In this document: positions 1,279 through 44,153 of the stretch, one piece after another | How positions within the stretch are numbered: position 1 is the first letter of the stretch | How the letters are laid out: each line of letters starts with the position of its first letter | Assembly (NCBI GenBank): GCA_025201365.1 | Contig: JAIXMF010000004.1 | Location: 434,001-498,000 of the forward strand | Reading direction: 5' to 3' | DNA from: Syncephalis plumigaleata | Lineage: Eukaryota > Zoopagomycota > Zoopagomycetes > Zoopagales > Piptocephalidaceae | Length of the DNA stretch: 64,000 bases | The notes under the pieces: generated by a model | What the model was told of the DNA's origin: nothing | The model's input: the letters and a program-made list of their open reading frames with translations, nothing else | The model's database searches: none | Made by a program: the position numbers and the translations under genes

Positions 1279-3728
1279 CTATAAATTACCCAACCAATGC
1301 TGTGCAATACGTTCACTCAATTTCACGCCAATTTTCCTCCTTAGTACCAATTCGTCATCATGCACAAACAGCTGTTGTCGCATACGTTCACTGGGTGCAC
1401 TCAGTAATGCCTCTAATATACTAAGGTGCAAGTACGATTAGGATATAAGAGTATTTGGATGAATGAGCATCGCATCACATCATAGAGGCAAGTCTACCTA
1501 CCATTGTGGAGATGGGTATTTCTGTACAATAATGCTTGCTTTCTCGGCGCTTACTCCTTTGATCGCCATCAGCATAAGCATTGTCGTGTGTTTAATCGAT
1601 TGCGGCGTCGTTTTCCTGCTTATAACCGCGTAATCCTCATAGTTTATCAAATGTGCTTCACTAGGGTGTCGCTCATTATATGCATGTCGCTCCAGATTTA
1701 ATCGTCGTAACTCGTCAGTCTCGATTGTAATGGCATGCAATCGTTTCTCCTGTTCAGTGTACAATTAGCGTTACACTCGTTAATCAATATAATTCACGTA
1801 CTTTGTATATTGCCTCCAATTGTTGAGTCATTGCAGCCAAGTAATCCACTGTTTCCTCGATGGTTCGTGTCTTTTTGAGGAAGAATCCACTGGATACTTG
1901 AACTGATGCTAGTATACCATCAATTCGATCAAGATCAAATGCACGCGCAGCCTCGACTGTATACCCCTCGATGAGATATATAATTTGTGCCAGTCCACTC
2001 TGTGAAAGTCGATGCTAGCTCATACCGTTAAATGCTTATTCTGTACATCTATCTAGCAATAATGCCACTTACATTTTGTTCATGATAACGACCATCCTTG
2101 ATACTTGCTATTAGATCATCAATTTGCTTACGCTCTAGTACAACATCCAATAGCATTTCTATAATGCTTCCTGTAGCTGTCTTTGCACGAGCAATCCATA
2201 ATGCATCGCCTAATGGGAGAGCACGCATTTCCGACTTGATCCTGTGTTTTTCGAGTCCTTGTTGTATGCACCTACTCTCTTTTCGTCCGTTTAACTCGCG
2301 ATTATCAATTAGTAGGATGATATCAAATGTACCAGGTTGTGCTGTGAAACTAATTGACGGTTCATACGCATCATCGGATGTTAGTGGATTTGGTATTCTT
2401 TGACTTGATGCTACGCTGTTTCCATTTCTATTTGATACACATCTGTCATTGATGGCGTTATCATCACTCGCCAACATTGACGTGGAAGCCATACTACACT
2501 CCACTTCGTCCAAATAGCCAGTCCAATAATTCAGACGATCCTGCCATTTTGATTTACGGAAAACTAATGCAGCTATACGATGCTTTGCCATCAAGTCGGT
2601 AAAACAGATGCGATAGCGTACTTTGCTAGTAATGGCTAGTAGCAATCATCACATCAGTTAGAGTTGAATGTATATGAATATATAATAAAGATCACTTACG
2701 ATCTACAAGTTTCTCTGCTTGTTCACGACTGCTAACAATAACATCATCTATACTAAGGAACGAGTATATAAATGAGCCACTATCGTTAGCGCTATTCTTG
2801 CTTTTGTTTACTCCACTAGAATGATCGTGTAATGCACTGTTTGTATCGATAATTGCTAGTGGTCTTCGTGTAGTACATTCCGATGTAACCTCTTCCGTAG
2901 TGTCATTATTCGTCAATAACTCATCATGTCTACGCACTAACTCTTCGGTGAACAAGCCCTCTGTTCGTGACAACTGCTCTGCAAGTACATTTCCTGCATC
3001 AGTCAAGTTGTAGATTAACGGTCTACCCGAAGCAATAACAAGTTCTTTTGACAATAATAGTTTCATCGAACTCCACGCTGTATATCGTGTACCCGGTGCT
3101 GGTATATCGAATGACGTGTCGGTATACAACGCTGCCGCCTGCTTCAAGGTGGCTCTAGTGGCCGTCTGATCTCTAGTCTTAACTTTAGTAAACCGATTAG
3201 TATTGCAAATGCACCTGATCGATGTCGTGGTACGTAGGATCTGCCTGTTGTACGCTGCTTCTTCGTCTTCAACGTAGGAGCATCATCCTTTGAAGACGTG
3301 CTCGTTGACTCGCTATTTACTGCATAGTCCATCTTCATTAATACTCATACCAATATGATTAATCACTCGTTACAATGACCTACCATGTCTTGGTGGACTA
3401 GCTGGATTAAAGATACCATGATCCGTGCAGTGTTGTGCCCATCGTTTCTCCAGTTGAGTGACAATTTTCGGCCCAATACCATTAAGAATCGATGCCTCTC
3501 GCGGATGATCGAATGGAATGGGATATCGCATTAGCGAGTCGGCTGCCTATAGTATATAGTAAGTTATCTATTTGGCATCCCTGCTTATTATCCACCTACT
3601 TTCTTATAAATAAAACGCATATTTCGGTCGCTACGCTGTTTTGCCTCTTCTTCCCATTGCTGAACCCAGTTTAAATAGAGTGGATTCCCGCACAACGGTA
3701 GGCTCTCCCGTTTACGCTTTGGCGGCAT
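1279..3728 (-). CDS. MUS81: Crossover junction endonuclease MUS81
   Basis: Catalytic subunit of the Mus81-Eme1/Mms4 structure-specific nuclease, which cuts stalled forks and recombination intermediates in the nucleus. The start MPPKRKRESLPLCGNPLYLN resembles the conserved MUS81 N-terminus and is followed by a helix-hairpin-helix (GIGPKIVTQLEKRW, about 3440-3490). A winged helix (DIPAPGTRYTAWSSMKLLL, near 3080) comes next. The XPF-type nuclease core follows: DIILLIDNREL, ALPLGDALWIAR, VLERKQIDDLIASIKDGRYHEQ, with the ERKxxxD metal site about 2110-2150. The C-terminal HhH region contains MLMAIKGVSAEKASIIVQKYPSP. Several small introns; the stop is at 1279-1281. It is divergent from the U2AF65 gene. 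No partner EME1 is in the window. Confidence 0.93.
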
Positions 3729-4030
3729 AGTTGATTACACTAGTAATAGTTATAATCAAGCAAACAAAGGAACGAATAGGCCAAATTGTTTATTTCGTGT
3801 CAGTTCAAGTCTAGGAGAAGCAATCCTTGTTATTCCAGTTTGAATCTCTATTACGTGTTTTTCCATTTCTTTACCCTGGTCCTCACTCACTCATTCACTC
3901 ACTTGCACACACTGATCGCTTTACTACTTATTACTGCGCCAATATTGTTACCCTTTGCTTAGCGATCCATCTATATTAGTAAATAGCGATTGAACTAACG
4001 GGTAGTAGTTACCGTGACTACAGCAGGGAA
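3729..4030. promoter_or_regulatory. Divergent intergenic region MUS81 / SAP-U2AF65
   Basis: About 300 bases separate two start codons that point away from each other, so it must carry both promoters. It includes CT-rich stretches and repeated cactcactcattc motifs just upstream of the plus-strand gene. No TATA box can be assigned with confidence. Confidence 0.5.
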
Positions 4031-7018
<2,988 letters not shown>

Positions 7019-7494
7019 GATTAAAAAAGTGCTTATTCACTATATGATTTCTATGTAATAGTTGTAATAGTATATAAGAAGGATAGCGATATATATTTAT
7101 ATGAAACGAACAAGATACCATTGTGTAGCACCAATCGTGGCATCATCACCATCATCATCATCATTTGATGTTGTAACCTCAGTTATTGTACCGCACCAGT
7201 GATTGATTTTTCTTAATTTCTTTTGATTTTTTCTTTCACTCACTCACTCACTCACTCACTCTTCTCTCTCGCGCTCAGTGAACAATTTACTGCTTGCTGT
7301 GTTTATTGCTATCGCTGTTGTGATTATTATTTCTAGAGCTACTGCTGCTACAAATTTACTTTTATTCCCTTTCTCTTCTAGTTGCACATCTCACCTTATA
7401 CTGTGCGACTCTAGGCTTTCCCACCTATATCTCGTGTTCTAAATCACCGCGGCTATTTTTATTCATTTCATATTACTCTCATCATCACATCATC
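7019..7494. other. Intergenic region upstream of RanGAP
   Basis: Holds the U2AF65 3' end and the RanGAP promoter. It has an (ATC)n run near 7140, a (TCAC)n run at about 7240-7262 and pyrimidine-rich tracts leading to the start at 7495. No gene is seen. Confidence 0.5.
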
Positions 7495-9555
7495 ATGAGT
7501 GATGCCATTCCTGAAGATCCTTACGCGGCCTACTACCCGCCCGAGAACATCTTTAGTCTCGCGGGATTAGGTCAGCACTGGGATAAATACGAGGATATTC
7601 AAGCGCACTGCGAGGCTATCACCAAGTATGAACGTCTTGAGGTGGTTCGTCTCTGTGGTAACACGCTTGGTGTACCAGCTGCTCGCGCGTTAGCTGAGGC
7701 ACTGCGTGGTCAAAAGCATTTGAAGGTTAGTAAAGCTCGAGAGAGCAAATGAGCGGGTATTGTACTCCATTCCTCTCCACTCCCTATGCGAGTGAGTGAG
7801 TGAGCGAGTGAAAGTGCGCGTATGCATATGTGCGTATGCGTATGCGTAAATGTGAGTGCGAGTGCGAGTGCGTGAGTGAGTGTGTGTGTGCTAGGCTGTG
7901 TACGTTATCGCATTGTTATGGGACATGGACAGTGCTAGCAGTACTGTACTAGTAGTACTGTGCTATTAGCGGTGCGATATAGGAAGGAAGGGAGACAACT
8001 GCGCGTCGTGGCACTGCAGCGCAGTATGGATGAAAATGCCGACATGGCGGTTAACCTATCAGCGTTGCCAGTAGTATAATGTCTAGACCATATAAAGCAA
8101 CGCTCTCTAGTTGTATAAATATAATGTATATATCAATACAACTAATAGTGATAATAATGGCTATATGCGTTTGTAACAGAGCAAAGCAGTAGAGCATGTA
8201 CAAGCTTTTGTATGCGTGTATGTGTAGATGTATGTCTCCATAGAAGAGAAGCCATAATAACTTGGCGTCGGTGGTTCAAATGAATCATGCTATGCATATC
8301 CATGCAGTTATGATGTCATAAAGTGTGATCGAGTCTAGGTGACACGATACTGATCGTTTCTAATTATTGGTTCGTTTCCTCTTCTTGCCATTGAGTGAAC
8401 ATGGTTACCATTCGTTGTTGTGAAAGATATACAGTTTATAAAAAAGGGGATGAGGGCTATTTTAACTGTAGAAGTAGTGATGATGAGACATAGTTCAACA
8501 ATATGTATACAATACTAATCCTGAATGTAATGATATTTGCCCGCTTTATTCACTATTACTAGGTCGTGGACATGAGCGATGTATTCACGGGTCGTCTACG
8601 TGATGAGTTATCCGAGGCATTAAAGGCGGTGTGTGAAGTGCTTATAGATAAGGACAACTTGCTAGAATTGGATCTCAGCGACAACGCCTTTGGACCCACT
8701 GGCGCAGCCCCATTGGTGCCTTTCTTGCAGGCTCGACGTTCATTGCGTACACTGCGCATCAACAACAATGGCTTGGGTCCCGAGGGCGGGCGCATGATTG
8801 CAGACGCGCTCTACGAAGCCGCCTGCGTTAACGAGGCCAACAATCAAACGTCTAATCTACGCACCATTATCATTGGTCGTAATCGTCTGGAGAATGGCAG
8901 TTCGGAGGCATTTGCACGAGCATTCGCCGCTCATTCACAATTGCGTGAGGTACGCATGCCACAGAACGGTATTCGCCCGGATGGTATTGTCACCCTACTT
9001 GGTGGACTTGGTAAATGCACGACACTACGCTACTTGGACCTGCAAGACAATACATTCACCGCCAAGGGTGCGATGGCATTGGCTAAGGTTCTACCGGTTT
9101 GGACCGAGCTAGAACGACTAAACATAGGCGATTGCATGCTTAACCCGGATGGTGCTCTTGAGGTGGCCAAAGCACTTAATGTAGCGCGTCCTTCCCTACT
9201 CTACTTGAACATGACCTATGCCGAGATGGACGATAAGGGTGCTTTGACATTGGCCGGTGCTCTTCTTAGTATGCCGGGCATGAAACAACTCGAACTTGAT
9301 GGCAACCGATTCAAGAACGATAGTGCGGCCGCTGATGCTATTCGCGATGCCCTTTTCCATCATAATAATGACAAGGCACTCGGTTCACTATCGGATATGG
9401 AGGAGGAATCTGAAGAGGAGGAGGAGGAGGAGGAGGAGGAAGAAGAAGAAGAGGAGGAAGAATCCGAAGCAGAAGAAGAGAAAGAAAAGGAAAAACACGC
9501 AGCAGACGAAGTAGATGCATTGACAGAGGCACTTGCCACGAAGGCAACCATCTAG
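7495..9555 (+). CDS. RNA1: Ran GTPase-activating protein (Rna1/RanGAP1)
   Basis: Stimulates GTP hydrolysis by Ran on the cytoplasmic side of the nuclear pore, so it sets the Ran gradient for transport. The protein is a chain of leucine-rich repeats with the family landmarks VVDMSDVFTGRLRDE, LSDNAFGPTG, NNNGLGPEGG, IIIGRNRLENGSS (containing the catalytic Arg region), RMPQNGIRPDGI, YLDLQDNTFTAKGA and LELDGNRFKND. It ends in a Glu-rich acidic tail (about 9400-9490), as in S. pombe Rna1. Two exons: 7495-7725 and 8563-9555, joined in frame (K|VVD). The 837-base intron is more than ten times the local norm. An AATAAA lies 48 bases after the stop. No frame defects were seen. Confidence 0.95.
7726..8562 (+). 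other. Unusually long intron of the RanGAP gene
   Basis: GT donor (gttagt) at 7726 and acceptor cactattactag at 8562. The 5' part carries GTGAGT/GTGCG-type simple repeats (7790-7890). The rest has no coding potential. A GTGATGA followed by CTGA near 8476-8523 resembles C and D boxes, but with too little spacing and no clear terminal stem. Confidence 0.8.
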
Positions 9556-28711: not shown

Positions 28712-31700
28712 TTAATGAGGAGCACCATGTCCAGTGGATGATGTCGATGTCGATGTGGTTGCCAAACTACGCTGATACTCTTGCATAAAAGCTCGTAGTA
28801 ATCCCTAAATAAATATATTACAAACTAGTTAATAAGAGTGTACATCTACGGGAGTGTATACTACTACTACTTGCTTGTGATAGTTCATCGACACCTTGCG
28901 ATGAATTTAATCGATTGGGATATCGTCTACCGTATTCGACGACCTTTTTAACAATAGCACTCATGAGAGATGGTGTCAATGGAGGATAGATAGGTTTGGC
29001 AGCTATATATATATATATAACAATAAGTAAGTAAGTAAGTAGGTAGTTACAATAAGAATAATAGTAATAGTATTTACCATGCGATGAACCTTGTCGATGT
29101 AATATTGGATCTGCCAATAATTGAGGAATGGTGGCACGTCCTTTAGGATCTCGAATGAGACACGATCTTAGAACACGAATAAACTCAGGGTCTACGGTGA
29201 ATGCCCCTTGACCCGATGATGATGGTGCGGTGGTTGCGGATAGGCAATCTCGTAGTTTGGATCTTGAATACACTGTATCTTTTGTAGCATATTAAGATGC
29301 GAAAATGGTGTATGTCCATAGATCATTTGGTAAAGAATACAACCAAGTGACCAGACATCACTGGAACGACCCAACTAAGTGATAGTGATAGTATATATGT
29401 ATTAGTAGTCCATCTAATAGTTAATTAAATGTAAACACTTACTTTCATCAATTGCTGATGAGGTTGACCTGGTATCGCAGTATTCGTATCTTGAAGTGCT
29501 TCAGGTGACATGTAATTAAGTGTACCAATCTATTCAAGCAAGTGTATAAGATGAAGGCTCATTATTATTCATTATATCGTCTTACTTGTTGATCACGATG
29601 AATATTCGTGGTATCATTCCCGATAGCTTTGGCAATACCAAAATCAATTAGCTTAAGTGAACCACCTACAGTGGGGGAAAAAATTGTTCACGTGTTATAT
29701 ACTTTTTTACTTTCCCAATCACTACACAATTAATAAACAACATATCACTTTGTACTTTTACATGTTAATAAAGCTATTAATTCTCTTTCTAATGATATAA
29801 AATATGTGCATACTTTATTATAGATTTCTTGAGATATTAGTGTTGAAAGTCACGTGGTGCACGTGAACAATTTTTTCCATTACTAATAAAATTAACATTT
29901 CTTACCAATAATCAATTTTTATTCAATTTAAATGTAATAAAATGTTTATATATGAGTAAATACGAGCTGTCGTGCATCGTACGAGCAATAAATAATTATA
30001 AATCAAGTTGATGTGGTTGAGCAATATGGCTATAATTGCTCATTTTAATGTATAGTAAAAATGTTACTACAGTATGCTTTATTCACTTCCAAATGTTGTG
30101 CAAATGCTTATTAAAGCGCTTTTAAGCAATGGTAGCCTCCCTAGAACCACTGCGGGCAAGTTAGCTATGGTTAAAGATATGATTACATTGAACAATCACG
30201 CATGCAGCTGCTGGAATAGCGTTCATGTTACTACAATTTCGCTTATTACTCAGTGTACATTCGACCGATCCTACTTAAATTGCAGGTTATGATAAAGCAC
30301 GTCTTCACGCAGATAATGATATAAAATAATGCTATGTCGATGGGAAAAGCGTCTAGTTATCATCCTACAAAGATGATGTCACATTAATGTCACTGAATAG
30401 CGTAAATTAATTCTTATTAAATCTTTTAATAAATTCTTTAACACTTTATTAACTGCTATTGTTATTGTTTATTATCTGCGTGAAGACGTGCTCTGCGCTA
30501 TTTTTTACTATTATTTTTGGCATTAATTAATAAATTTATTACAAAAAATTAAAATTAAAATTTACGCTATTCAGTGACATTAATGTGACATCATCTTTGT
30601 AGGATGATAACTAGACGCTTTTCCCATCGACATAGCATTATTTTATATCATTATCTGCGTGAAGACGTGCTTTATCATAACCTGCAATTTAAGTAGGATC
30701 GGTCGAATGTACACTGAGTAATAAGCGAAATTGTAGTAACATGAACGCTATTCCAGCAGCTGCATGCGTGATTGTTCAATGTAATCATATCTTTAACCAT
30801 AGCTAACTTGCCCGCAGTGGTTCTAGGGAGGCTACCATTGCTTAAAAGCGCTTTAATAAGCATTTGCACAACATTTGGAAGTGAATAAAGCATACTGTAG
30901 TAACATTTTTACTATACATTAAAATGAGCAATTATAGCCATATTGCTCAACCACATCAACTTGATTTATAATTATTTATTGCTCGTACGATGCACGACAG
31001 CTCGTATTTACTCATATATAAACATTTTATTACATTTAAATTGAATAAAAATTGATTATTGGTAAGAAATGTTAATTTTATTAGTAATGGAAAAAATTGT
31101 TCACGTGCACCACGTGACTTTCAACACTAATATCTCAAGAAATCTATAATAAAGTATGCACATATTTTATATCATTAGAAAGAGAATTAATAGCTTTATT
31201 AACATGTAAAAGTACAAAGTGATATGTTGTTTATTAATTGTGTAGTGATTGGGAAAGTAAAAAAGTATATAACACGTGAACAATTTTTTCCCCCACTGTA
31301 CTAGTAGGAAGTTGGCCGGTTTCAAATCACTATGAACAATCTTTTCTTCGTGAATGGCATTAACTGCATGTAGCATCTAGATGATATACATATATATATA
31401 ACATTATTAGAGATGTATTTATACTAATGTTGCTGTTATTGCTGTTGTTACCTGTTCCCAGTAGAGTAAAATGAAATTAATACTAATGGGTTTATCGTTT
31501 CTCTTTCTTAATATGCCATCCAAGTCGATCTCACCACATTCCAATAACTAATTGATTGATTAGTAAACCACAGTTAGTTATAATGACTATCACTTACCAT
31601 AGTAATTATCTTTCGTTCCTTATCGTATTCCCAATCAAATAGGTTAATAATACACTCGTGTTTAGATAAACGAGTCAATAGTTGAATCTCGTTCAGGTAG

Positions 31701-33717
31701 CTTTCAATTGTACTCTTGTCGGCCTTACGAAGTGTCACCCGTTTCATGGCAAATATACGATTACTAGGTGCCATCACTTTGTACACTCTACTGCTACCAC
31801 CTTTACCGATGAGTTTAAGTCGAAAGAACTGTCGACCATTGATCTATAAGCAAATAAAAGGGAATGAGCAATCAATAGATAAAGGAGACGAGATACATAC
31901 AATATAGGTACCGTTACTTCCGGCTGCTGCTGCTGCTGCCGTTGCCGTTGTTGCCGGTGTATTCGTATCTGTATTTGCATGTGTACTGACATTCGCTTCT
32001 GCGGGTGTGGCAGTGGCCATAACTACTGGAGCAGCAGCTGATGGTGTCATCAAATGATTTGAGGTAGCCGACTCAGTTGCCAATGATGCAGTATTTACTT
32101 TTGGTGGCGATATCGATGTCTACATGACACATACATAGATACATATAAATATATAAGTTACTATTAATATCACTATCTCGTCTACTCACCTTGATCGATG
32201 GCATCTCTAGCTTGGATAGACCTGTCAAACTAGATAATTCCCGCTCCGGTTCAGATACACGAGACATTAATGATGGCTGACCCTTTGTTCTAGCTGTCGT
32301 GTCATTCATGTACATGGTTCGTCCAGTGTTAGATTGATCAACAACCGACATATCATCTGCTGTTGGTTCCTGTTGCACTACAGATTCATTACCATAACTA
32401 GATGTTAGTTTGTAGGAGGGTGTAGCGTGTTGAATGTTGGTATTAATCGATTTCTCCGCTATTAGTTCATCTCTCAAATGACATTTCGCATCTGTAGATA
32501 GAGTTGATTCCATCTGATGCGATTCTGTTTGTTTATTAGCTGATGATGATGATGATACGGTATTAGCATAAGTAGTCGATGACATGGGTCGAGCTACTTG
32601 AACTGCATCTGACACATCACGAAAACTCTGTGATAATGCCGTGTTGATACGATACGATGGATTAGCGTGTTCATCCGCAGATCGTGTCGAGTGGTTGGGC
32701 AATGAAAATGAATGATTATCCATTCGAGTAGCATGGCTTACATTTGCTAAATTGAATTTATATTAGATTGATTATATAATTGCTTAGTCAATCAATCAAT
32801 TAGCTTACCTTCACTGTTAATAGACGCATTATGTGATTCATCGTAGAATTGAGTATTTGATACTGCTTAATGTCATTAGTACTCGTCATTTATCCTATTA
32901 ATACACTATTACTTACCATGAGCATTACTAGTACGTTTATCAGGTTCATTTGCTAATGACGATGAAAGTGACATTAAAACATCTTCACCATCCTCATTGT
33001 CATTACTTTGTTCGTGTCGTAATGATCGTGCTGGTGGTCCCAACTTGATAGGTCGTCTAGGCATGGCATTCAAATGTCGTTTTGTAACGCGTGGTGCAGT
33101 AGCCAATCTACATGATGTTACTATTTGTTTATTTATTATTAAATGTTTACACTTACATGGGTAAGAATGGACTGCTTAGTTTCACGGCAGAAGACGGCAT
33201 AATTGGACTCATCGAATCTTTGCTCGCTGCTAGTTGATTATCCTATAGAAAAGTATAAAATAAATGTATACACTCATGTTATAATCATTGTGTTGTGTTT
33301 AGACATAGGCTCAATAATAATAATAATCACCTTCACTCCGCTAGTGTCTTCGATCGGCGATGAAAACAAGGCAGAACCACCGGAATTAACGGTATTATCG
33401 CTGTGTTGCTCCATCTCAGAGCTTGTACTCGATTGACGCCCCTTATCCGTGAATAGTCGAGTTTGTACTCGTTTCGGTAACGGTGAATCTAGACTGGGCG
33501 AGGAAGGTTCTATTCCGTAACGTGCAAAGAAATCGCTGTCCAGCATAAGAGGCGTGGACACTGCGTCCGATTCCTTCGCATCTTGACTGGACGACGAAGC
33601 CGTAGACAGCCTGTGCACTGATGAAATGGACTGCACGTAACACGTTAATAAAGATGAACTACGTGACCGAATCAATCCGTGTTATATTTGTCCTTTAGTA
33701 TGACTTACATTATCCAT
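28712..33717 (-). CDS. MPS1: Mps1/TTK spindle-checkpoint kinase, interrupted by a transposon
   Basis: Dual-specificity kinase of the spindle assembly checkpoint. A long Ser/Thr-rich N-terminus (about 32070-33717) precedes the kinase domain. The domain reads [19 protein letters not shown] (glycine loop), [20 protein letters not shown] (catalytic Lys), [38 protein letters not shown] with ANFLLV (HSDLKPAN catalytic loop), [16 protein letters not shown] (DFG), [33 protein letters not shown] and [20 protein letters not shown]. The GTA codon of FLLV is split by a 1,630-bp TA-flanked element (29669-31298), and removing element plus one TA rejoins FLLV|GGSLK exactly. As written the message would end 43 codons into the element. 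One base is also missing near 29231. It is likely essential, so a second intact allele is expected. Confidence 0.9.
29669..31298. mobile_element. Palindromic (foldback) Tc1/mariner-type element inside MPS1
   Basis: Ends CAGTGGGGGAAAAAATTGTT / mirror image, flanked by TA at 29667-29668 and 31299-31300. The left arm (29669-30408) and right arm (30559-31298) are each 740 bases and look identical on opposite strands. They surround a 150-base loop (30409-30558). Each arm also holds an inner reversed copy of 19 bases of the terminal repeat (29860-29878 and 31089-31107) and several CACGTG sites. Each arm has a 72-codon open frame (30074-30292 and 30675-30893, the same protein twice) without recognisable transposase motifs. 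It is non-autonomous; arm identity suggests a recent origin. Confidence 0.88.
30074..30292 (+). CDS. 72-codon open frame in the left arm of the palindromic element
   Basis: Reads [20 protein letters not shown], then [20 protein letters not shown] and a Cys/Ser-rich end ([16 protein letters not shown]). No DDE/D triad or helix-turn-helix is recognisable. The mirror copy at 30675-30893 on the other strand encodes the same residues. Because it appears twice only through the palindrome, doubling is not evidence of selection. It could be a fragment of a lost autonomous element, or chance. Confidence 0.2.
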   Translation: MLYSLPNVVQMLIKALLSNGSLPRTTAGKLAMVKDMITLNNHACSCWNSVHVTTISLITQCTFDRSYLNCRL

Positions 33718-34114
33718 AGTGTATTCACATAGATGTACCCAATAAATCGTGTCCTCCTCCTCCTTTCTCTTCTTCAATGGTACTGACCAGATAGATAACA
33801 CGAATACAATAGAATGTGTATGCCTGTGTGAGTGTATATGCGTCAAAGAGTCAACTGATAATAACGGTAATAATAACGCGTAGTAGTAGATTAAATGGGA
33901 TTGAAACACATAAGCGCCTATAAAAGAGGAGAGAAGTGCGTGCGTGTTCTACTAATAATAAAAGCCTGTAATATGAAAATGGCAAGAAATGTGAGATGTA
34001 TAAAATAGTTGGACAATTAATCACGTGATATACTGATGTATTAAGAAAAAAAAAGAAAAAGGATTTTTCTTTCTTTTTATACTTACTTCAACTCATCGAA
34101 TTATTTACACGGTT
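33718..34114. promoter_or_regulatory. Divergent intergenic region MPS1 / NOP15
   Basis: 397 bases between opposed starts. It ends with an A-rich then T-rich stretch (34045-34080) just before NOP15. No gene is seen. Confidence 0.5.
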
Positions 34115-35074
34115 ATGGCTCGTCAATCTGCCCGTTTAGCAACTCGCGCGGCTAATAAGCTAGCGCAATCAGCCAAGAAGGAGGAAAAGTTGTTGGCTGC
34201 CGAGGTTGAGTCAGAGGAGCAAGACTACTTGACGGTGAACACGGTAGAGGACAATGACAACCCGTCTAGCGAACTTGACGAGGCACTAGAGGATGCTATT
34301 TCATCGCAAGGTGAAGCCGATAGCTCCAATGAGGAATCCGGTAGCAATGATGACGATAATGATGATGTGTCGGAAGATGAAGGAGACAGTGACGCAGAGG
34401 AGACAGAAGATGCATTTGTCAAGAATACATCAATCGTAGCATTGGATCCAGCACAGCAGGAAGTAGTGCAAGCACGTCTTCAACAAGCAAAGAGCAAGGT
34501 GATTAATAGCGAGAAATAAGATATATATATAATGATGATTGCTAAACTGTACTGTTATTATTGTATTCATTACTGATAGGCGCGTAAAGAACAAGCAACA
34601 ACTGGTGTTGTTTATGTAGGACGTATTCCGCATGGTTTCTACGAAGATGAAATGCGAGGTTATTTTGGTCAATTTGGTACAGTGTCCCGTTTACGTCTAT
34701 CTCGTAATAAGAAGGTAAGTGTGCTACACTCGATGAATGAACATGCTTCATTATTTGCATACTCATTATTGTGGCAATACTATGTGATGTAGACTGGTCG
34801 TTCCAAGCACTATGCATTCATCGAATTTTCCGACGCTGATGTCGCTGACGTTGTAGCCGAGACAATGAACAACTACTTACTTTTTGGACGCATGTTGAAA
34901 TGTAATTAGCATAGACTGTAATCATGTTAGCTAAGCAGATTGCGCTAATTAATGAATTATAATAGGCCAAGTGGTACCTGCACAAAAGGTGCACTCTCGC
35001 TTATTTGATGGAGCAGACCGCAAGTATAAGCCATTGCCTTTGCATAAGATGGCTCGTGCTGAGCACAATCGTGT

Positions 35075-35117
<43 letters not shown>

Positions 35118-35428
35118 CTAGAATGCATCCGATTTCTTATACATATTTATTAACTAATACACTCTATCTACTACAATTAGTCACGTACCGCTGAGGAGGC
35201 TGAACGACATACTCAACGTTTACTACGTAAGGAGAACAATAAGCGTAAACGTCTTCAAGAAATGGGCATTGACTATGATTTCCCTGGATTTGTAAGTGTT
35301 TTTAGAAAAGAAATCTCTAATTATTATATACTAATATCATAACAACTATTTGATGATAGGCTGCCGTACAAAAACCAAAAGTGCAACATACATCAGCGTC
35401 ATCATCATCGACAACATCCACCGCATAA
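34115..35428 (+). CDS. NOP15: Ribosome biogenesis RRM protein Nop15 (NIFK family)
   Basis: Nucleolar RNA-binding protein needed for 60S pre-rRNA (ITS2) processing. A basic start ([20 protein letters not shown]) is followed by a Glu/Asp/Ser-rich acidic stretch. The single RRM is [20 protein letters not shown] (RNP2), [40 protein letters not shown] (RNP1) and [13 protein letters not shown]. The family tail is [40 protein letters not shown] and [15 protein letters not shown], ending SSSSTTSTA. Six exons, frame intact. One intron starts gtaagtagtagt and is largely an (AGT)n run (35072-35118). Confidence 0.92.
35072..35118 (+). repeat. (AGT)n microsatellite fused to a NOP15 splice donor
   Basis: About fifteen AGT units. 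The first two bases of the run are part of the GT donor of the intron, so repeat slippage could change the donor context but not the exon. Confidence 0.85.
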
Positions 35429-35508
35429 ACATATTAATATGCGTGTGTGTGTGTGCATGTGCATGTGCATGTGTTGACTCTATAACTATTATATTGAATT
35501 TATTGTCA

Positions 35509-37340
35509 TTAAAATTTAACGGGTGACCGTTTTAATAAATGAGCTAAACGTAACACCATTGTTAGTAGTACGAGTGAACCCGCTTGATGTGATGCTGCCA
35601 ATGGAATGGGCACTGCATAGAGTAGTGTCGATATACCTAGACTTATTTGAACGAGTGCCGCTGCTAACATACCATGAGCTGTCAATCTAATCGATTTTGG
35701 TAGAGGCAATCGACACGCGTAATACCATAGAGCCATGGTAGCTGCCACTGTAGATGTACCCTATATTCATGTATTCATGTATTCATGTATTAGTAATTGA
35801 CACATGGTTGGGTGATCTAGGTAATAACATACCATGACACGATGATCAAATTGCACAGTGACAGGATTCTCGAACAAGTTACGCCATCGACTGGTATCTC
35901 CCGGTTTCTTGAAGTCATTCGACCAGATATCATGCTCGGGTGGAATCCATTGACCGCCCATCTTAGGGAAAGTGTCATAAAGGAGACCTGCATCGAGACC
36001 TGCCACAAAAGCGCCTATTCATATCATATCATATCATATCATATCATATCATATAGATAGATAGATAGATAGATCATAGTTAGCTTAGTTCTTCATTTAC
36101 TAATAGAATGTACGAAAAGACCCACCTGACATGGCAGTGGCAAATGCTAGAACTGAAAGTGTCAATGCACCTAGGCGTAATCGTTTCACTGCTGGTTGGC
36201 TCAACTACAACATTGAATTGAATGAGTAAACTAGACTAGTACTATTATAAATGATAATGTCCACTTACCAATTTGACCACTTCAGGACGTGTACGTGTTT
36301 GTGCCATTAGAACATCCCATCCCGTGGTAAGCATACCAATGTAGATGAGAAAAGCCGAGCCTAGATGAGCCGCTAATCGATACTGACTAACGCGTGGCAC
36401 GCTATTACTTGTGAAGTGCTCCTCCTCCAGTCCACTCTTCACCATATACCAGCCTAGTACACCCTATAGACACATAGACATGCCATACAGTGTCAATAGC
36501 TAACAGTTAAGTAATCATCATGTCACTCCTTACTTGAAATCCAATCAATGCACTAATACCTAGTACACGCTTACCAAGTGTACGTGGTAACCAGCCACGA
36601 CGCCAAAAGTAAAGTGCCGGCAACACGAATGACAAACCAATAGCCCGACCCCACATACGATGTCCCCATTCCATGTAGAATATACGTTTGAATTCATCAA
36701 GCGACATGCCATGATTTAATCTAGTATAACCATGCATTAGTAATGATATTAGTAGTAACATTTTCATAGCTTACATTTTATACTCGGGATATTGCTTATA
36801 CTTTTCGAATTCCTCCTCCCAGCCTTGTTGTCCGATAGGTGGCCACACACCCTTTAATACATTCCATTCCACGATAGATAGACCACTTTCTGTAAGACGT
36901 GTAAGCCCACCAAGCACAACAATACCGAATACCAGTACACCCGAACCAATAAGCCAGTAGCCAACAATAGGTGGAGTAGGTGTTTCTGCTTCTGTTGACG
37001 TATTATTATCAGTAGTACTACTAGTAGTAGTAGACTTCTTTATTTCCATGGCTGAGTCAAGTGTAGCCTGTGTTAGACGTGGTGGTAATGTAGACAAGCA
37101 ACGATAGGTTGACGTTAATGTTGTAGGATATAATAAAGAACGTTGCTGTTGCTGTTGTTGTTGCTGTACTAGTAAACGTGATACATTCATACGCGACATT
37201 GTACTAGTAGACATTGACGACGATAGTTGTGTTAGTGGACGTGTCGTCATAATACGCGATATTCCCGCATATTGTCTACTAGGCCATACACGCTGTAGTG
37301 GCAATAAACGAATATTCCTTAACAAATTCAGTGTAGTCAT
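35509..37340 (-). CDS. COX15: Heme A synthase COX15
   Basis: Mitochondrial inner-membrane protein that oxidises heme O to heme A for cytochrome c oxidase. The N-terminal presequence is Ser/Thr/Arg-rich with a poly-Gln run (about 37141-37165). Membrane segments and conserved His sites follow: [110 protein letters not shown] and [20 protein letters not shown]. The EWGHR, AAHL, DHR and SHQ histidines are heme ligand candidates known in the family. Five introns; frame intact. It is functionally linked to PET117 at 14.8 kb. Confidence 0.96.
36017..36075. repeat. (CATAT)n(GATA)n compound microsatellite in a COX15 intron
   Basis: Seven or so CATAT units followed by five GATA units, entirely inside a short intron. 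Confidence 0.85.
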
Positions 37341-37827
37341 AATGAATAACGAGTTAAAGAGAAGAGAATGAACCAGTTATTGATTCAAGAATATTGAATA
37401 GCTTTCCAATTAATAGGAAGGAAAAAGAGAGAACCAATAAAGAACAAATAATAGGGTTATTAGTTTACTACTAGTATTGAATACTACTAATTGATAGTTA
37501 TTCAACTTGAATAGTATACCCGATATCTACTTGCCTCTTTCAGTTTTTATTTCAATTCAAATAAGCAAATAACAGTCAATTATATCACGTATTTGATCCA
37601 ATGTGTATTGTTTGTTAACTGTTTTTTAGAGCAAAGTTTAATGCCGATATGCTTCGGTAAATACCGGAATGATCATTCCCCAAAGCAATTTATATGTATA
37701 GATACGGATAAGCAACAATACAAAGAATAAGAGAAGGAAAATGAAATAGTTAAAATGAAGATGATGAAGAAGGTAAAGTAATGTGCTAATGATGCTAATA
37801 GTTAGGTCAGGTCAGGCTAGGGTCAGG
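37341..37827. other. Intergenic region COX15 promoter / MEF2-like 3' flank
   Basis: AT-rich spacer with a GGTCAGGTCAGGCTAGGGTC direct repeat just before the MEF2-like stop (37804-37825). No gene was seen. Confidence 0.5.
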
Positions 37828-40778
37828 CTATTCCGCGCGTAAACGCTTTGTTGTAGGCATTTCCGTAGTGGGTGTCAATTCACTTGCAGTACGTACAGCA
37901 GCATGTAATAACGAATTACTATTATTACTACTATTACTATTAGTAGCAGTAGTGGTAGTGTTCATTCCTGTAATAGATGAAGATAGTGAAGGGATGGGTG
38001 TTACCATTAAAGATGCAAAAATGCCGGATGATTTCTCCTTACTGTTATTATTACGGTCGGTGCCTTCGTCATTGTCATTGGGATCACGATCGGTATTTGT
38101 CGTATTATTCGTATAACTATTTGCTAGTGGTGTTCGAGATCGAGGGGGTACAATAATAGATCTACTACCAGCATAGCTTGTCGTCGTGTCTTGACTCTCT
38201 CCCGTAACCGAGTCAGCTTGTTTTAATGGCGATGGATGATGGACTACATTACTATTAGTAGTGCTGCTGCCATTATTAGTACCACTAGTGCCACTAGCAC
38301 CACTACTGGTCACACTGCCACCTGAACTTGTGCCTCGTGTCATTGGAGCAGGCCAGTGGAATGAACCACCCGTGCCCGACTTTGGTGTAGGTGTATTAAA
38401 CGAAGGGAATGGAGATGGCACGTCATTGTTTTGTTGATAGATTTCACGATAAAATGCTGATGGCGAGGGAAGATCGCGTGCAAATTTGGAGGGTAACGCT
38501 GATGCTAGATTACCATCTTGTCCCGCACTATTAGTACTATTGGTAGTGGCGGTACTATTAGTGGTAGTGGTTGTAATGCCACTACTACCCGATGGACTAG
38601 ACATGGATGCTGATGTCATCATTGATGAAGCGAGTAGGGTGGAAGTAGAGACCTCCTCTGTTTTTATGTTGACTGCCATACCACTGTCTTGCTGTTGTTG
38701 CTGTTGTTGTTTGTCTTGATGTTCCTTACTAAGTACTTCACGGAGTGTACGTTGCAATGGATCCATATTGGTGTCATTGTCGCTAGCTTCATTGATACCA
38801 TCCTTATCGCCATGACCGCCATTGGTTAGACTCGTGTTTAGACGGTCAGGAATATCCGATCCGGCTGTTGCTGCACCGGTAGCAATTTGACTTGATAACA
38901 CACCACTACTATTACTTATATTATTAAGTAGATCACTGGGTTTAGTAAGATCGGATATACGATGAGAAATGGAGTGTTGTCGCATACGACCCGCTTGTCT
39001 ATCCGCATTGCCACCATTCTCGTGGGTGTCATTGGAGGGCGAGTCCATTTGCATATCGGTAACACTCGTGGTGCCACCGATTAGATGAGATCCAGAGTTG
39101 GGACGTTCGGGGATTTGAACACTCAATCCGGCTGGTTTCTTAAGAATATGCGGACTACGATGACCGGTAGGTGGTAGTTCCCCAAGTTTCTTGGCAAATG
39201 TCGGTAAAGGTGTACTAGTATCCGCATTAGCAGCAGCTACATTGATATTCAAGGAACGATTAACCTTGCCATTGTTGTTATTGTTGTTGTTGTTGTTGCT
39301 ATTGCTGCTATTATTGCTGCTATTGCTGTTCATGCTGGCATTCTCTGATAATGGTATCGGTTCAGAAATAGATGTGGCAGTGGTAGTAGTAGTGGTAGTA
39401 GTAGTCACTGGAATAGTAGCTGTATTGTTTACCGCTAATTGTGCTGCTGTATTCGAGGTTACATTCGTAAATTGTAATTGTTCTTCGTTAGTGACAGTTT
39501 GTTTAAGCGGTAGAGGAGGCGATATCGATTGAGATAGCATGTTCAACGAGTGTGTCTCCTTTATCTGTTCAAATGATTGAATTTGCTGTTGCTGTTGCTG
39601 TTGTTGTTGTTGTTGTTGTACAGTCTGTGTAGCAGCTACTACTTGTGATTGTGAATCAACCGTATTATACGCCATAGTTTGTGCCGTAGAGTAAATGGGC
39701 TGTGACTCGGATAGAGTAGGGGCTGCCGGATACACGGTCATATAGCCATTATACGAATTGGGAGCCATTGTAGTGGCAGTAATGGAGGTACCACCTGGTG
39801 ATGCAACATACGTGGTATTCTGTAATTGTTGCATGTTCATAGTTGGTTGTGGCTATCAATGATAACGAATTAGTAAATAATCATGACTACTACTATTACT
39901 ACATCATAAGTAGCTGCTAAACTTACCTGTACCATATAGTTTTGTACTTGTTGCATTGATGCTGCCTGCGAGTAAACATGCGAGTATCCATTGGATAAGG
40001 TAACAGGCATAGGGGCCGTCGGTGGTTCAGTCTTCATCTGACCTCCTCCATAAATCGACATGTCATTTTGATTATACTCGGCGACAGATGGATTATCATT
40101 GCCCGAGAAACTTGAACTAGGCTTGTGACCCAACGAGTCAGACTATCATCAATCATCATTCATTAGTATATCATATACGATAGAATGCTATAAACATATA
40201 TATATATATATATTATCATCTTACTCTAGGCTTTGTAGTAGGAACAGTATCCGGGAATCCATGTCGAGTTGGATCACAATCTTCATTAATGAACTAGATA
40301 TCAATTGATTGATTTATTAGTAACATTCCATTGAGTAATGATGATGACATGATGATCATCATAATCATCATAATTACTACTTACATCTTCATTAGTACGA
40401 CTTTCCGATGGTTCACCATACTATAATCGTCATATTAGTGTAAATATACGTAATTGTCTCACTTTCTCTCTTTCCCTTTATATTATTAATCACTTACATT
40501 GGTATATCTTAGTAGAATATGGTCCATGTCACCACTCGAGTATTGTACCAATTTATCCTGAGTATTAAAGATAATCAAACCAATCTCACAACTACATAGA
40601 ACGCTCAACTCGTAGGCCTTCTTCATCAGACCATATTTACGTTTTAGAAACGTGACCTTTACAATAATGAAACAATTAGATATGAACATCATCATTTTAT
40701 ACATGTATACATCTATTAACTTACCTGACGATTTCTATCATCAGCAATAGGTGTAATCTTAATCTTACGTCTTCCCAT
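37828..40778 (-). CDS. MEF2/Rlm1-type MADS-box transcription factor
   Basis: Nuclear DNA-binding factor. The MADS box [40 protein letters not shown] and [20 protein letters not shown], and the MEF2-type extension [20 protein letters not shown], place it with MEF2/Rlm1/Smp1 rather than SRF. In yeasts these factors are targets of the cell-integrity MAPK. The rest (37828-40130) is a low-complexity activation-type region with runs of Gln, Asn, Thr and Ser, punctuated by SP/TP sites ([19 protein letters not shown]). Four short introns fall in the first 900 bases, then one 2.0-kb exon. The stop follows TTKRLRAE. Frame intact. Confidence 0.93.
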
Positions 40779-42727
40779 TATATATATGTATATAGGATAG
40801 TCAAAGATACGACGATAAGAATACTAATAACAATATGAATAACAATAACAACTACGACAACTAAACTGGTCAGCCTTGTTTATGGCCTATTTGACTGTAG
40901 AATCAACAAAGATGAAGCAAAATGAAGAAAATGAAAATGCAGCAGTAGCAGCTAAATCGCGAAAGATGTAGCAAGTCAGAAACAAATGAATATGATGAAA
41001 TGAAAAAACGATAGAAAGGCCGATAAGGAGATGTTCACAACCAGTCAACAGATGAATGTCCGACTATTGAACAATATGAACAATCAAGTGGAGTAAACGT
41101 GGTAAAAGAAAAGAATACTGGCAATGAGAAGTGAAGTTCACAGTGACAATCAATAAAAGTGTGTGGTGTGCGTGTATGCGTGAGTGTGTATGCGAGAGAG
41201 AGAGAGTGAGAGAGTGAGAGAGTGTGTGTGTGTGTGTGTGTGTGGATGATGATAGTAATACTTGTATTTGTAGTTATAGTTGTAATACTGATGTAGTCAA
41301 TATGACAACATAAACACTCAATCAATCAATCAGCCAGCCAGCCAGATAGACAAGTCAGCCAGATAGACAAGTCAGCCAGTCAAGTCAGACAGTCAAGTCA
41401 ATCGATTAATTAATCACACTAAAGTGTATAGCTCGCTTACTCGTTCGTTCATGCACTTGCGTATTCTTTTCTTTATAGCGTGCGATACTGCAGCAAGCTA
41501 ACCCCACAAATACACATATACACTTCTTATGACACGTTTGTTCTTGAGTGTCTACACACTGTGGTTGACAAATGTATGCAACAATGACAATGGATGTAGT
41601 AGAGAAATGCGCTATATATGCTTACACTCTTTTACAAGAGTATATGCGATAGGGTAAAAAGTACAACAGGTACTTGGAAAGAAGAGGAAAGTTACGATAA
41701 ATGATGGTATGAGGTGAGTGTGTGTGTGTGTGTGCACTGATGTGAGTGTGTGTGGATGAATGATGAATGTGGAAAGGGAGAAAGTGTCGCGTCTCCCTGA
41801 TTCATCCACTACTCTGTGCTATATATAGCGTGCGGTCAGCTCATAGTTAGATCGTGACACTAAACTTTTCTAATTGCGAAATAGTTGGCCAGACTTTACT
41901 CATAGACCCTTGCCATGAGTAATAGCAAATGCTACAATGGATCAAGCTCTTTCTTTCCCTTCTAACTTATAAAGAGGACTAGTTACCTATATGAGAGTAC
42001 ACTCGATGATTACATGGCAAATGAATAAAATGATGAATGTGATATCATTGATAGTAGTATACGTGTAAGCAATGACACTAGCCTATATATTATTCTGTTA
42101 CTATTAATACTATTGCTATTGACTGCTTACTGCCTTATTTGTACTAATGCAAGTGATACTCGACGAGTACATACATCGTCCTCTTTAGTACAAGTGTGAA
42201 TTATTATCTACATGTTTATGGTTTGGATCCATTATTCCTTGAATATCGGTTATTTAAATGTTTGAATCTTACCATTCCCATTCATTAATATGGATATACT
42301 CGAGTTCATTTATTATTGCCAAGAAGTAGACTACTATGTCGAATGACAATGTAGCAAGCAAGGTGAGAGAGAGAAAGAGGGAGAGAGAGATTATTGATGA
42401 GCAGTACTAGCAATCATAGGCAATAGAGTTTCAGTTGATCAAAGGCCCAACACACACACACGCACACACATACGCATATGCATACACACGTTTGATATTG
42501 TATTAGTGGAATGGTTCTAAAAATAGACATTATTTATTGAGGAAATAACCAACTAAAAATAGCAATCACATCTACTAATGAAATAATATAGAAGCGGTAT
42601 AAAATAGTGTAATGTTGGTAAATTACCATTGATATCGTAACAATAACAAAAAAAGCGAACTGTTTCTAGTATAATAATGTATAACCTATCATATATGAAT
42701 AGCAAATGATAATGGATATTCACCACA
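40779..42727. promoter_or_regulatory. 1.95-kb region upstream of the MEF2-like gene
   Basis: No gene is recognised. It contains purine-rich stretches (40910-41020), a (GT)n run at 41220-41242, a GT/TG run at 41716-41734, a minisatellite of GCCAGATAGACAAGTCA units at 41335-41400 and a (CA)n run near 42452-42485. This length of upstream DNA is exceptional here and may be extended regulatory sequence. Confidence 0.5.
41328..41402 (+). repeat. Short minisatellite of CAGCCAGATAGACAAGT-type units
   Basis: Two near-perfect copies of a 17-base unit (cagccagatagacaagt), flanked by degenerate CAGT/CAAG units. Confidence 0.8.
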
Positions 42728-43492
42728 TCAAGTGGATTTACTTGTAGCTACTATTGAGGGTAGCCCACGCATACCAAGTCCTATTGGAGATGATGATGTC
42801 GATGATGTCGATGATGATGATGATGATGATAAAGGTGAGTTTGCCACTTGAATGGGTGTCGACATGGTCATAGTTTCAGATTGAGACTGCATTCTTGATG
42901 GTGGTGATGGTGTACGACAACTGAAAGTATGCGAAATGCTACTTGGACTATGATGGTCATAGCGTTGATTTCGAAGAGGACTCGTATTTCGTCGTCGTTT
43001 CTCCTCTAGTTCATAAAGGGCTGCACCTGCCAGTAATGCCATGGTTGCTGGACTGGCTGGTCGACTGGTGTGCATGGTACGCATCTCCTTTTTATGTGTG
43101 GATCCGTTCAACTCACTCTCAAGAAGAAGATGCTGACGTTCTAGTGCTCGTAGTCCACGAAGTGCATCACGCGCACTCGTCCATGCATAGTAGAAACAAC
43201 CTGCTAACACACCGATAATACAAACGATTAGCAATAGACGTGCCGAGTCCCATGGAAATCCCGAGATATCAAGAGTATTGGCATCTAGAATATTAATAAG
43301 AAAGATAAGCCATAATAGATTAGCATATTGGTCTATTATTCTATAAGCAGCCCTAAGCAACCATATCAGTGTAATAGCAATAGCTACTACTTTACTACTA
43401 TTATCTAGTATGATTCAGAGTGTCATCTTGCATACATACTCACCTGATGCAACATTACTGTTTATTTTCACGTTTGCATTAGTCCAGCCCAT
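42728..43492 (-). CDS. Orphan single-pass membrane protein with Ser-rich tail
   Basis: Not recognised. The start is taken at MGWTNANVKINSNVAS (43492); after a short intron comes DANTLDISGFPWDSAR, then one membrane span (LLLIVCIIGVLAGCFYYAW). A basic/helical segment (RDALRGLRALERQHLLLESE) follows. The C-terminal half is disordered and Ser/Pro/Thr-rich, with a (Ser)n run at about 42785-42835. The short N-terminus plus a positively charged cytosol-side flank would fit a type III single-pass protein. The reading joins cleanly at the intron (CA TCA G|AT GCC). No family assignment is made. Confidence 0.5.
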
Positions 43493-44153
43493 AGTTTACT
43501 GGTAATTGCCCAGTCTAATACGCACTAAGAAACACTAGATTGTTGAATTCGTCACTATATATGTATATAATATGCAACTTCGTGTATAACTATTTAACGA
43601 GAAATGAAAAGATCAAGAAAATGAAGCTAAAAGAAAGAAGAAGAAAGAGAAGGAAAAAGTTGGTTTCAACAACTTTCACGTGCAAGTCTTTAAAGCCAAG
43701 ACTAGGCAAATGACGGTAGTTATGGTGTCAATAACAACAACAAACGCTAATAACAAATACAAGGATTGTAACAAAATAGAGCAGCAGTAGTAGTTGAAGT
43801 AGTAAAAGTAGATCAAGCGAGTAATGCATACACGATATGTAGCCCGACTGATGATATACACCAATCACATAGACGGTGGGAATAATCCGCTTGTTTCGTT
43901 ACAAGTCCGCTTTTTAATGCAGTAATTATAAGGCTTCCTTATAATCCAATGGATTATACTGATAACAAATGATTAAATGATTAATTCATTTCCTAGTATA
44001 ATCGATGTTGTTAAAGAGAAGAATGTAGATATACTACGAGTAGTATTTATTGTATTAGTATTTGTAAGTAAATAAATAATAAAAGGCCTCGACAAATATA
44101 AGGAGAAATGACGATTAAAATCATAATAATGCATAGTGTAAAACGTCATGATA
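43493..44153. other. Intergenic region left of the 44.15-kb transposon
   Basis: AT-rich, purine-rich near 43600-43660. No gene is recognised. Confidence 0.5.

Follow-up and report, generated by a model that had tools for sequence, protein, structure and literature searches.

A palindromic Tc1/mariner-type element in an Mps1-type kinase gene of Syncephalis plumigaleata, its likely transposase-coding partner and signs of exchange between its arms

Repeat search defined a palindromic element of 1,630 bp, composed of two arms and a loop, at positions 29669-31298 of the window (the whole stretch of 64,000 nucleotides analysed here, within a contig of 1,545,695 bp). The element sits within an exon of an Mps1/TTK-type kinase gene on the minus strand, and is best explained overall as a foldback palindrome that derives from a Tc1/mariner element and is non-autonomous (probability about 0.86). 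Elsewhere in the window, a RanGAP-like frame has 99% identity to a protein of S. plumigaleata. The parts of the element are as follows.

29669-31298, unstranded: palindromic element of subfamily A, assigned as non-autonomous and Tc1/mariner-type, 100% identical to six more copies in the assembly, with TA on each side
29669-30408, plus strand: left arm, 740 bp, exact inverted copy of the right arm
30409-30558, unstranded: loop, 150 bp, with 21 matches in the assembly, equal to the number of palindromes
30559-31298, minus strand: right arm, 740 bp, exact inverted copy of the left arm
29667-29668, unstranded: left TA of the target duplication, a single TA in the allelic contig
31299-31300, unstranded: right TA of the target duplication, a single TA in the allelic contig
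29669-29879, plus strand: left terminal 211 bp, sharing 90.5% identity with the 211-bp terminal repeat found in the transposase-coding element
29676-29694 and 29860-29878, plus strand: outer and inner 19-bp sites of the left end, in inverted order
31088-31298, minus strand: right terminal 211 bp, mirroring the left, with 19-bp sites at 31089-31107 and 31273-31291
30074-30187, plus strand: left-arm sequence (arm positions 406-519) that is probably a relic of the transposase N-terminus and lies almost colinear with position 404 of the coding element
30780-30893: mirror copy of this probable relic in the right arm

The two repeats returned by the search, 29667-30408 and 30559-31300, are 742 nt each including the flanking TA, 100% complementary and 150 nt apart. 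The initial annotation had described identical 740-bp arms, a 150-bp loop and TA flanks, figures that are exact once the TA is left out. The ends of the element read CAGTGGGGG and CCCCCACTG, both flanked by TA. As in foldback elements, the arms make up nearly the whole element (2 x 740 of 1,630 bp). Each arm contains an open frame of 77 codons from stop to stop, or 72 from the first ATG; the 72-codon frames reported earlier are thus present, and they look like a decayed relic instead of a gene.

The host gene is represented in the window by the following segments, together with a long stretch to the right of the insertion that is present twice in the assembly.

31598-31843, minus strand: kinase N-lobe exon, TTK/Mps1 by sequence, with a second copy on contig C303
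31299-31376, minus strand: part of the kinase exon upstream of the insertion
29586-29668, minus strand: part of the kinase exon downstream of the insertion, the exon end being placed by eye from the GT after it
31299-43743, unstranded: stretch present twice, the second copy being the allelic contig C303 (12,393 bp), 98.17% identical and colinear

The insertion point follows the HSDLKPAN motif; the upstream exon reads into the element, and the kinase reading resumes downstream of it. For the N-lobe exon, the best 22 of 33 PDB matches are TTK (E 6.8e-14). The exons upstream of the insertion match 342 proteins, among them Mph1 of Schizosaccharomyces pombe and other Mps1-type kinases, some with names that refer to the spindle checkpoint, and in the best 120 of the 342 none is named Syncephalis, many being without an organism name. 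By sequence, the host gene is closest to the TTK/Mps1/Mph1 kinases. The frame running into the element hits a stop after 43 codons of element sequence, and a truncated kinase would be expected from the interrupted allele; the strain presumably relies on the other kinase allele, which is seen only to the right of the insertion. In the 3' kinase exon a further frame change follows NYEIAYPQ, around 29190-29290 (minus strand), which is either a second lesion of the allele or a consensus error.

The allelic contig C303 starts with CACC-TA-CTAGTAGG, namely four bases of the left flank, one TA and the right flank, and an exon search of the assembly found on it the second copy of the N-lobe exon, coding for the same protein. 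With an empty site, marked by one TA, only four bases into this contig, heterozygosity of the kinase insertion is very probable. The left flank occurs nowhere else in the assembly, and the empty allele is therefore defined by those four bases together with the point at which the contig breaks off. It had been claimed that the flanks rejoin exactly, that the TA flanks are a target duplication and that another intact allele, nucleus or splice route should exist. C303 provides the rejoined site with one TA, though with only four left-flank bases, a single TA is also found at the empty sites of other loci, and an uninterrupted allele does exist for the region to the right of the insertion.

Uninterrupted counterparts of the other insertion sites were searched for with flanks joined at one TA, in a set of 24 sites that excludes the window and the locus L058; 40 of 619 and 40 of 137 candidates were scored, and one counterpart per site was compared (15 stretches for 17 sites). 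At least 17 of the 24 sites have such a counterpart, 16 of them clearly with a single TA, while that of L059 lies in a run of TA and is therefore uninformative on this point. Thirteen counterparts belong to palindromes, L059 included, and the coding elements L047, L048, L050 and L051 have counterparts with a single TA; among the candidates scored, no counterpart was seen for L039, L040, L041, L042, L049, L057 and L063. Several sites with many counterparts lie in other repeats, and their empty sites are paralogous, not allelic, so that they show the target duplication rather than an allelic state. Four contigs (C332, C142, C225 and C179) are 97.2-98.8% counterparts without the palindrome for L054, L060, L061 and L064, and may be further alleles. 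C303 and the window diverge by about 1.8%, and the organism looks heterozygous. A published study reports three of the four Zoopagomycota examined as non-haploid, and counts a Syncephalis among the mycoparasites (PMC6784888).

A census over the 32.6-Mb assembly revealed 26 elements of this family. A 24-base terminal pattern had 51 matches with up to three mismatches and an internal 33-mer had 52, corresponding to two ends for each of 26 elements; the terminal pattern is one short because L058 is cut by a contig end. The reversed control patterns gave no match in the assembly, and no solitary ends or old relics were found within three mismatches of the 33-mer or the 24-mer. The family comprises 21 palindromes and five Tc1-type coding elements, with TA on both sides in all 25 elements that have both ends (20 of 20 palindromes and 5 of 5 coding elements), and also at the one visible end of L058. 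Eight palindromes carry subfamily A arms, of which seven, the one in the window included, are identical at 1,630 bp; the eighth, L042, has A arms with exactly the loop of subfamily B. Subfamily B has 13 copies (1,629 bp where whole), including L052, L057 and L058. Of ten B copies compared, four do not differ from one another at any of the 1,629 bp. The loop has seven matches at 100% and 14 at 94-95%. The coding elements, termed type C, consist of four identical copies of 1,652 bp and L051, which has 199 bp more. Over what is left of each copy, the arms are perfect in 17 of the 21 palindromes, the others having arm-to-arm differences of two in L055, two in L059, one in L056 and forty-four in L052.

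Seven identical 1,630-bp copies at separate places speak against a chance palindrome, and the recurrence of related elements throughout the family against a chimeric one; both readings were rejected. A genome-wide search for further copies of the arm and loop, as proposed by the initial annotation, finds 21 palindromes, seven of them identical over all 1,630 bp. That the element is young is in agreement with copies that are identical or nearly so; of the view that such a foldback is a rare event, the long identical arms stand but the singularity does not, as the element is one of 21 palindromes in the assembly. Two copies carry additional insertions. The B palindrome L057 is interrupted at 1410-7522 by a 6,113-bp LTR retrotransposon of Ty3/gypsy look with identical 182-bp LTRs; by eye, its second long frame has a dUTPase-like stretch, and the palindrome itself lies in similar sequence. 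By eye, the 199 extra bases of L051 resemble a solo LTR (TG...CA, flanked on each side by GGGAG); they change the C-terminus of its open frame.

The 211-bp terminal repeats of type C elements are perfect. Their open frame, 380 codons long (376 in L051), contains PF01498 and PF13358 above the cut-off. The predicted transposase matches Sleeping Beauty SB100X with an E of 4.6e-48, and has a triad of D188, D281 and E317 with 35 residues between the last two (DD35E). As its nearest relatives have 340 residues and a methionine start is found at element position 404, the true protein may be of 340 residues. The earlier assignment of the palindrome to a Tc1/mariner origin is borne out by these elements, which combine related ends with a transposase in the same genome. 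For the L047 transposase (L047 784-1923), all named eukaryotes among the best 120 relatives are Rhizopus (Mucorales), most of the 120 being unnamed. Mucorales is the group parasitised by Syncephalis, which makes this a lead for host-parasite transfer, but Rhizopus is heavily sampled.

Similarity of the arms to type C covers its first 211-293 bp, at 86-90% for subfamily A and 77-80% for subfamily B. Within the terminal repeats common to palindromes and type C, the identity is 90.5% over 211 bp for A and 78-80% over 233-236 bp for B, and the left arm of L052 is identical to type C over 1-212. Two conserved stretches, 1-28 and 165-213, hold both 19-bp sites of each end in inverted order. In these blocks, which were chosen after viewing the alignment, B differs from C at 3 of 77 positions compared to 42 of 136 in between (p 1e-6), and A differs from B at 3 of 77 compared to 37 of 136 (p 8e-6); for A against C the blocks have no significant excess of conservation (4 of 77 versus 17 of 136, p 0.10). 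The conserved stretches are what shared binding sites of one transposase would look like. Very likely, the palindromes are mobilised in trans by the DD35E transposase encoded in the 1,652-bp elements, which would bind the conserved outer and inner sites at each end and insert the palindrome at TA through a cut-and-paste mechanism.

Inward of the terminal repeat, the kinship with type C is seen at the protein level. At arm positions 406-519, 12 of 38 residues are identical to the N-terminus of the type C transposase at nearly the same place, a score reached by none (B) and one (A) of 20,000 shuffles; the tblastn match that first pointed to it is weak (E 0.006, best of 120 queries). Beyond position 293, the arm DNA is no closer to type C than shuffled sequence, with an identity of 49.7% against a mean of 46.9% and a maximum of 52.3% in 30 shuffles. 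An inner arm derived as a plain copy of the open frame of the coding partner found no support at the DNA level; it is linked to type C by the short protein relic only. The palindrome is best regarded as the 5' half of an old relative present twice in inverted orientation, each half with terminal repeat, leader and N-terminus relic; this is the less certain part of our interpretation.

The two subfamilies differ at 56 of the 740 arm positions, 45 of which lie in 1-237. Neither the A copies nor the B copy used here show any difference between their two arms, so that each of these differences is mirrored. A and B have the arm/loop junction in common and their loops are 95% alike; for this reason, the palindrome most likely came first and its arms then changed together. 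Among the B copies, positions 202 and 347 of the arm occur in all four combinations, and are symmetric between the arms in 10 of 13 copies (permutation p 0.002); the two arms read AA and GG in L055 and L059, and GG and AG in L056. As the permutation treats the copies without regard to common descent, the four combinations and the copy L052 are the stronger arguments. The left arm of L052 equals the C terminal repeat, with no differences in 1-212, and is of B type from there onward, whereas its right arm is pure B; the left arm has 44 differences from B, all within 1-173. The outer ends of A (1-213) have 21 differences from C compared to 40 from B.

L052 has the form to be expected of an intermediate in a process by which one arm of a palindrome first acquires the end of the partner and the other arm then receives a copy of it; A would be the finished product of an end capture from a C relative. 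It is likely, as we infer from these copies, that sequence exchange keeps the arms identical and spreads an end captured on one arm to its counterpart. The most plausible mechanisms are the folding of one strand back into a hairpin with mismatch repair between the arms, or gene conversion during repair, either of which might act. There is about an even chance that renewal proceeds in two steps, in which one arm captures the terminal repeat of the partner by recombination and the fold-back then copies it, giving rise to a new perfect subfamily such as A. Arms or copies might, in principle, have been made to look too similar by consensus polishing of the assembly.

Several other explanations were weighed against these data. 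Long perfect palindromes are a known class of artefact, namely the fold-back chimeras of long-read sequencing that arise in the library or the assembly, but such an origin is scarcely credible: the same boundaries and loop occur at 21 sites, TA flanks every copy for which both ends are available, and uninterrupted counterparts exist for the window site and 17 of the 24 others. It is also quite improbable that the palindromes are moved by another Tc1-type transposase of the genome rather than that of the 1,652-bp elements. The genome does have 31 matches to DDE_3 (PF13358), which include several other Tc1-type groups, some with open frames of 347-383 codons. However, among 20 other DDE_3 loci compared with the arms and loop, L080-L082 alone matched (38-76 bp), and the remaining 17 gave nothing at E 1e-3. 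By contrast, similarity to the 1,652-bp elements extends over the full 211-bp end, and in L052 this end is itself present. Among the 31 PF13358 matches, five have one score and a 383-codon frame, and 12 contain a stop. For the Pogo-type transposase PF03184 no match was found, but the control genomes were silent too, so that the negative carries no information.

Perfect arms might also reflect, without any exchange, a recent burst from one perfect master, the A and B palindromes having been made independently. The seven identical A copies and the four identical B copies speak for this scenario, yet it is rather unlikely: A and B share their junction and a similar loop, L042 combines the two subfamilies, the B copies have several combinations and asymmetric intermediates at the mirrored sites, and L052 has the new end on only one arm. 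As to the kinase, it would take splicing of the element out of the transcript for the filled allele still to yield a usable product, which is unlikely. Four GT-AG combinations do keep the frame within about 80 bases of the element ends, and an in-frame splice from GTACAG in the flank to CTTAAG downstream loses only six residues between the catalytic loop and DFG. These six residues, however, correspond to a structured hairpin of kinases; the pair nearest to the element ends, GTACAG...CTGTAG, is absent from the in-frame results, and the 3' exon of the same allele has its further frame change.

Foldback elements and Tc1/mariner palindromes are already known, and the S. plumigaleata family adds a member that comes with its likely autonomous partner. 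Among the closest systems is Tc6 of Caenorhabditis elegans, a palindromic element of about 1.6 kb with two long inverted arms, Tc1-like ends and a TA target, all of which are shared by the present palindromes. Compared to Tc6, the latter reside in a zoopagalean fungus, have coding partners with related ends in the same genome, and form two subfamilies with arms in step. In the open-licence literature, no paper was found by title or start of abstract on Tc6, on this element or on transposons of S. plumigaleata. In carrying PF01498 and PF13358, the transposase resembles those of Sleeping Beauty and Tc1, and so do the ends, which measure some 210-230 bp and each contain an outer and an inner site. 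The differences are the 35 instead of 34 residues from the second D to the E, the inverted 19-bp sites, and the ratio of palindromes to coding elements of 21 to 5. The FB elements of Drosophila have arms of tandem subrepeats and a 9-bp target duplication, whereas the target here is TA and the repeat listing has no tandem array in the arms.

The foldback Tetris has long inverted arms and non-autonomous forms sharing their ends with another element; no transposase-coding copy of it was found, and most foldbacks are said to seem to belong to Mutator (PMC4079207). Similarly, Tm1 is described as a Mutator-type element with long inverted arms, non-autonomous forms that have ends in common with another element, 9-bp target duplications and a putative coding partner, Tm1-A, and Mcmar of Meloidogyne chitwoodi, a Tc1/mariner-like element with 355-bp terminal repeats, is cited as an expansion towards a foldback structure (PMC3169594). 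The S. plumigaleata family differs from Tetris and Tm1 in its TA targets and its Tc1/mariner DD35E partner, and from Mcmar in that its palindromes have 740-bp arms and a short loop and are without a transposase.

For the organism, the insertion looks like a natural heterozygous lesion of a spindle checkpoint kinase. For the family, the copies appear to preserve a record of how arms were homogenised and ends captured. Instability is expected of long perfect palindromes, yet this one assembly contains 21, and in 17 of these the remaining arm sequence matches perfectly. Because the set includes the coding partner, the copy with a new end on one arm (L052) and three arm-asymmetric copies, both the identity of the arms and the tracking of the transposase can be tested in one small genome. 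If the proposed exchange is true, the palindrome would be not an unstable accident but a self-correcting structure that lets a transposon parasite track the binding sites of its partner.
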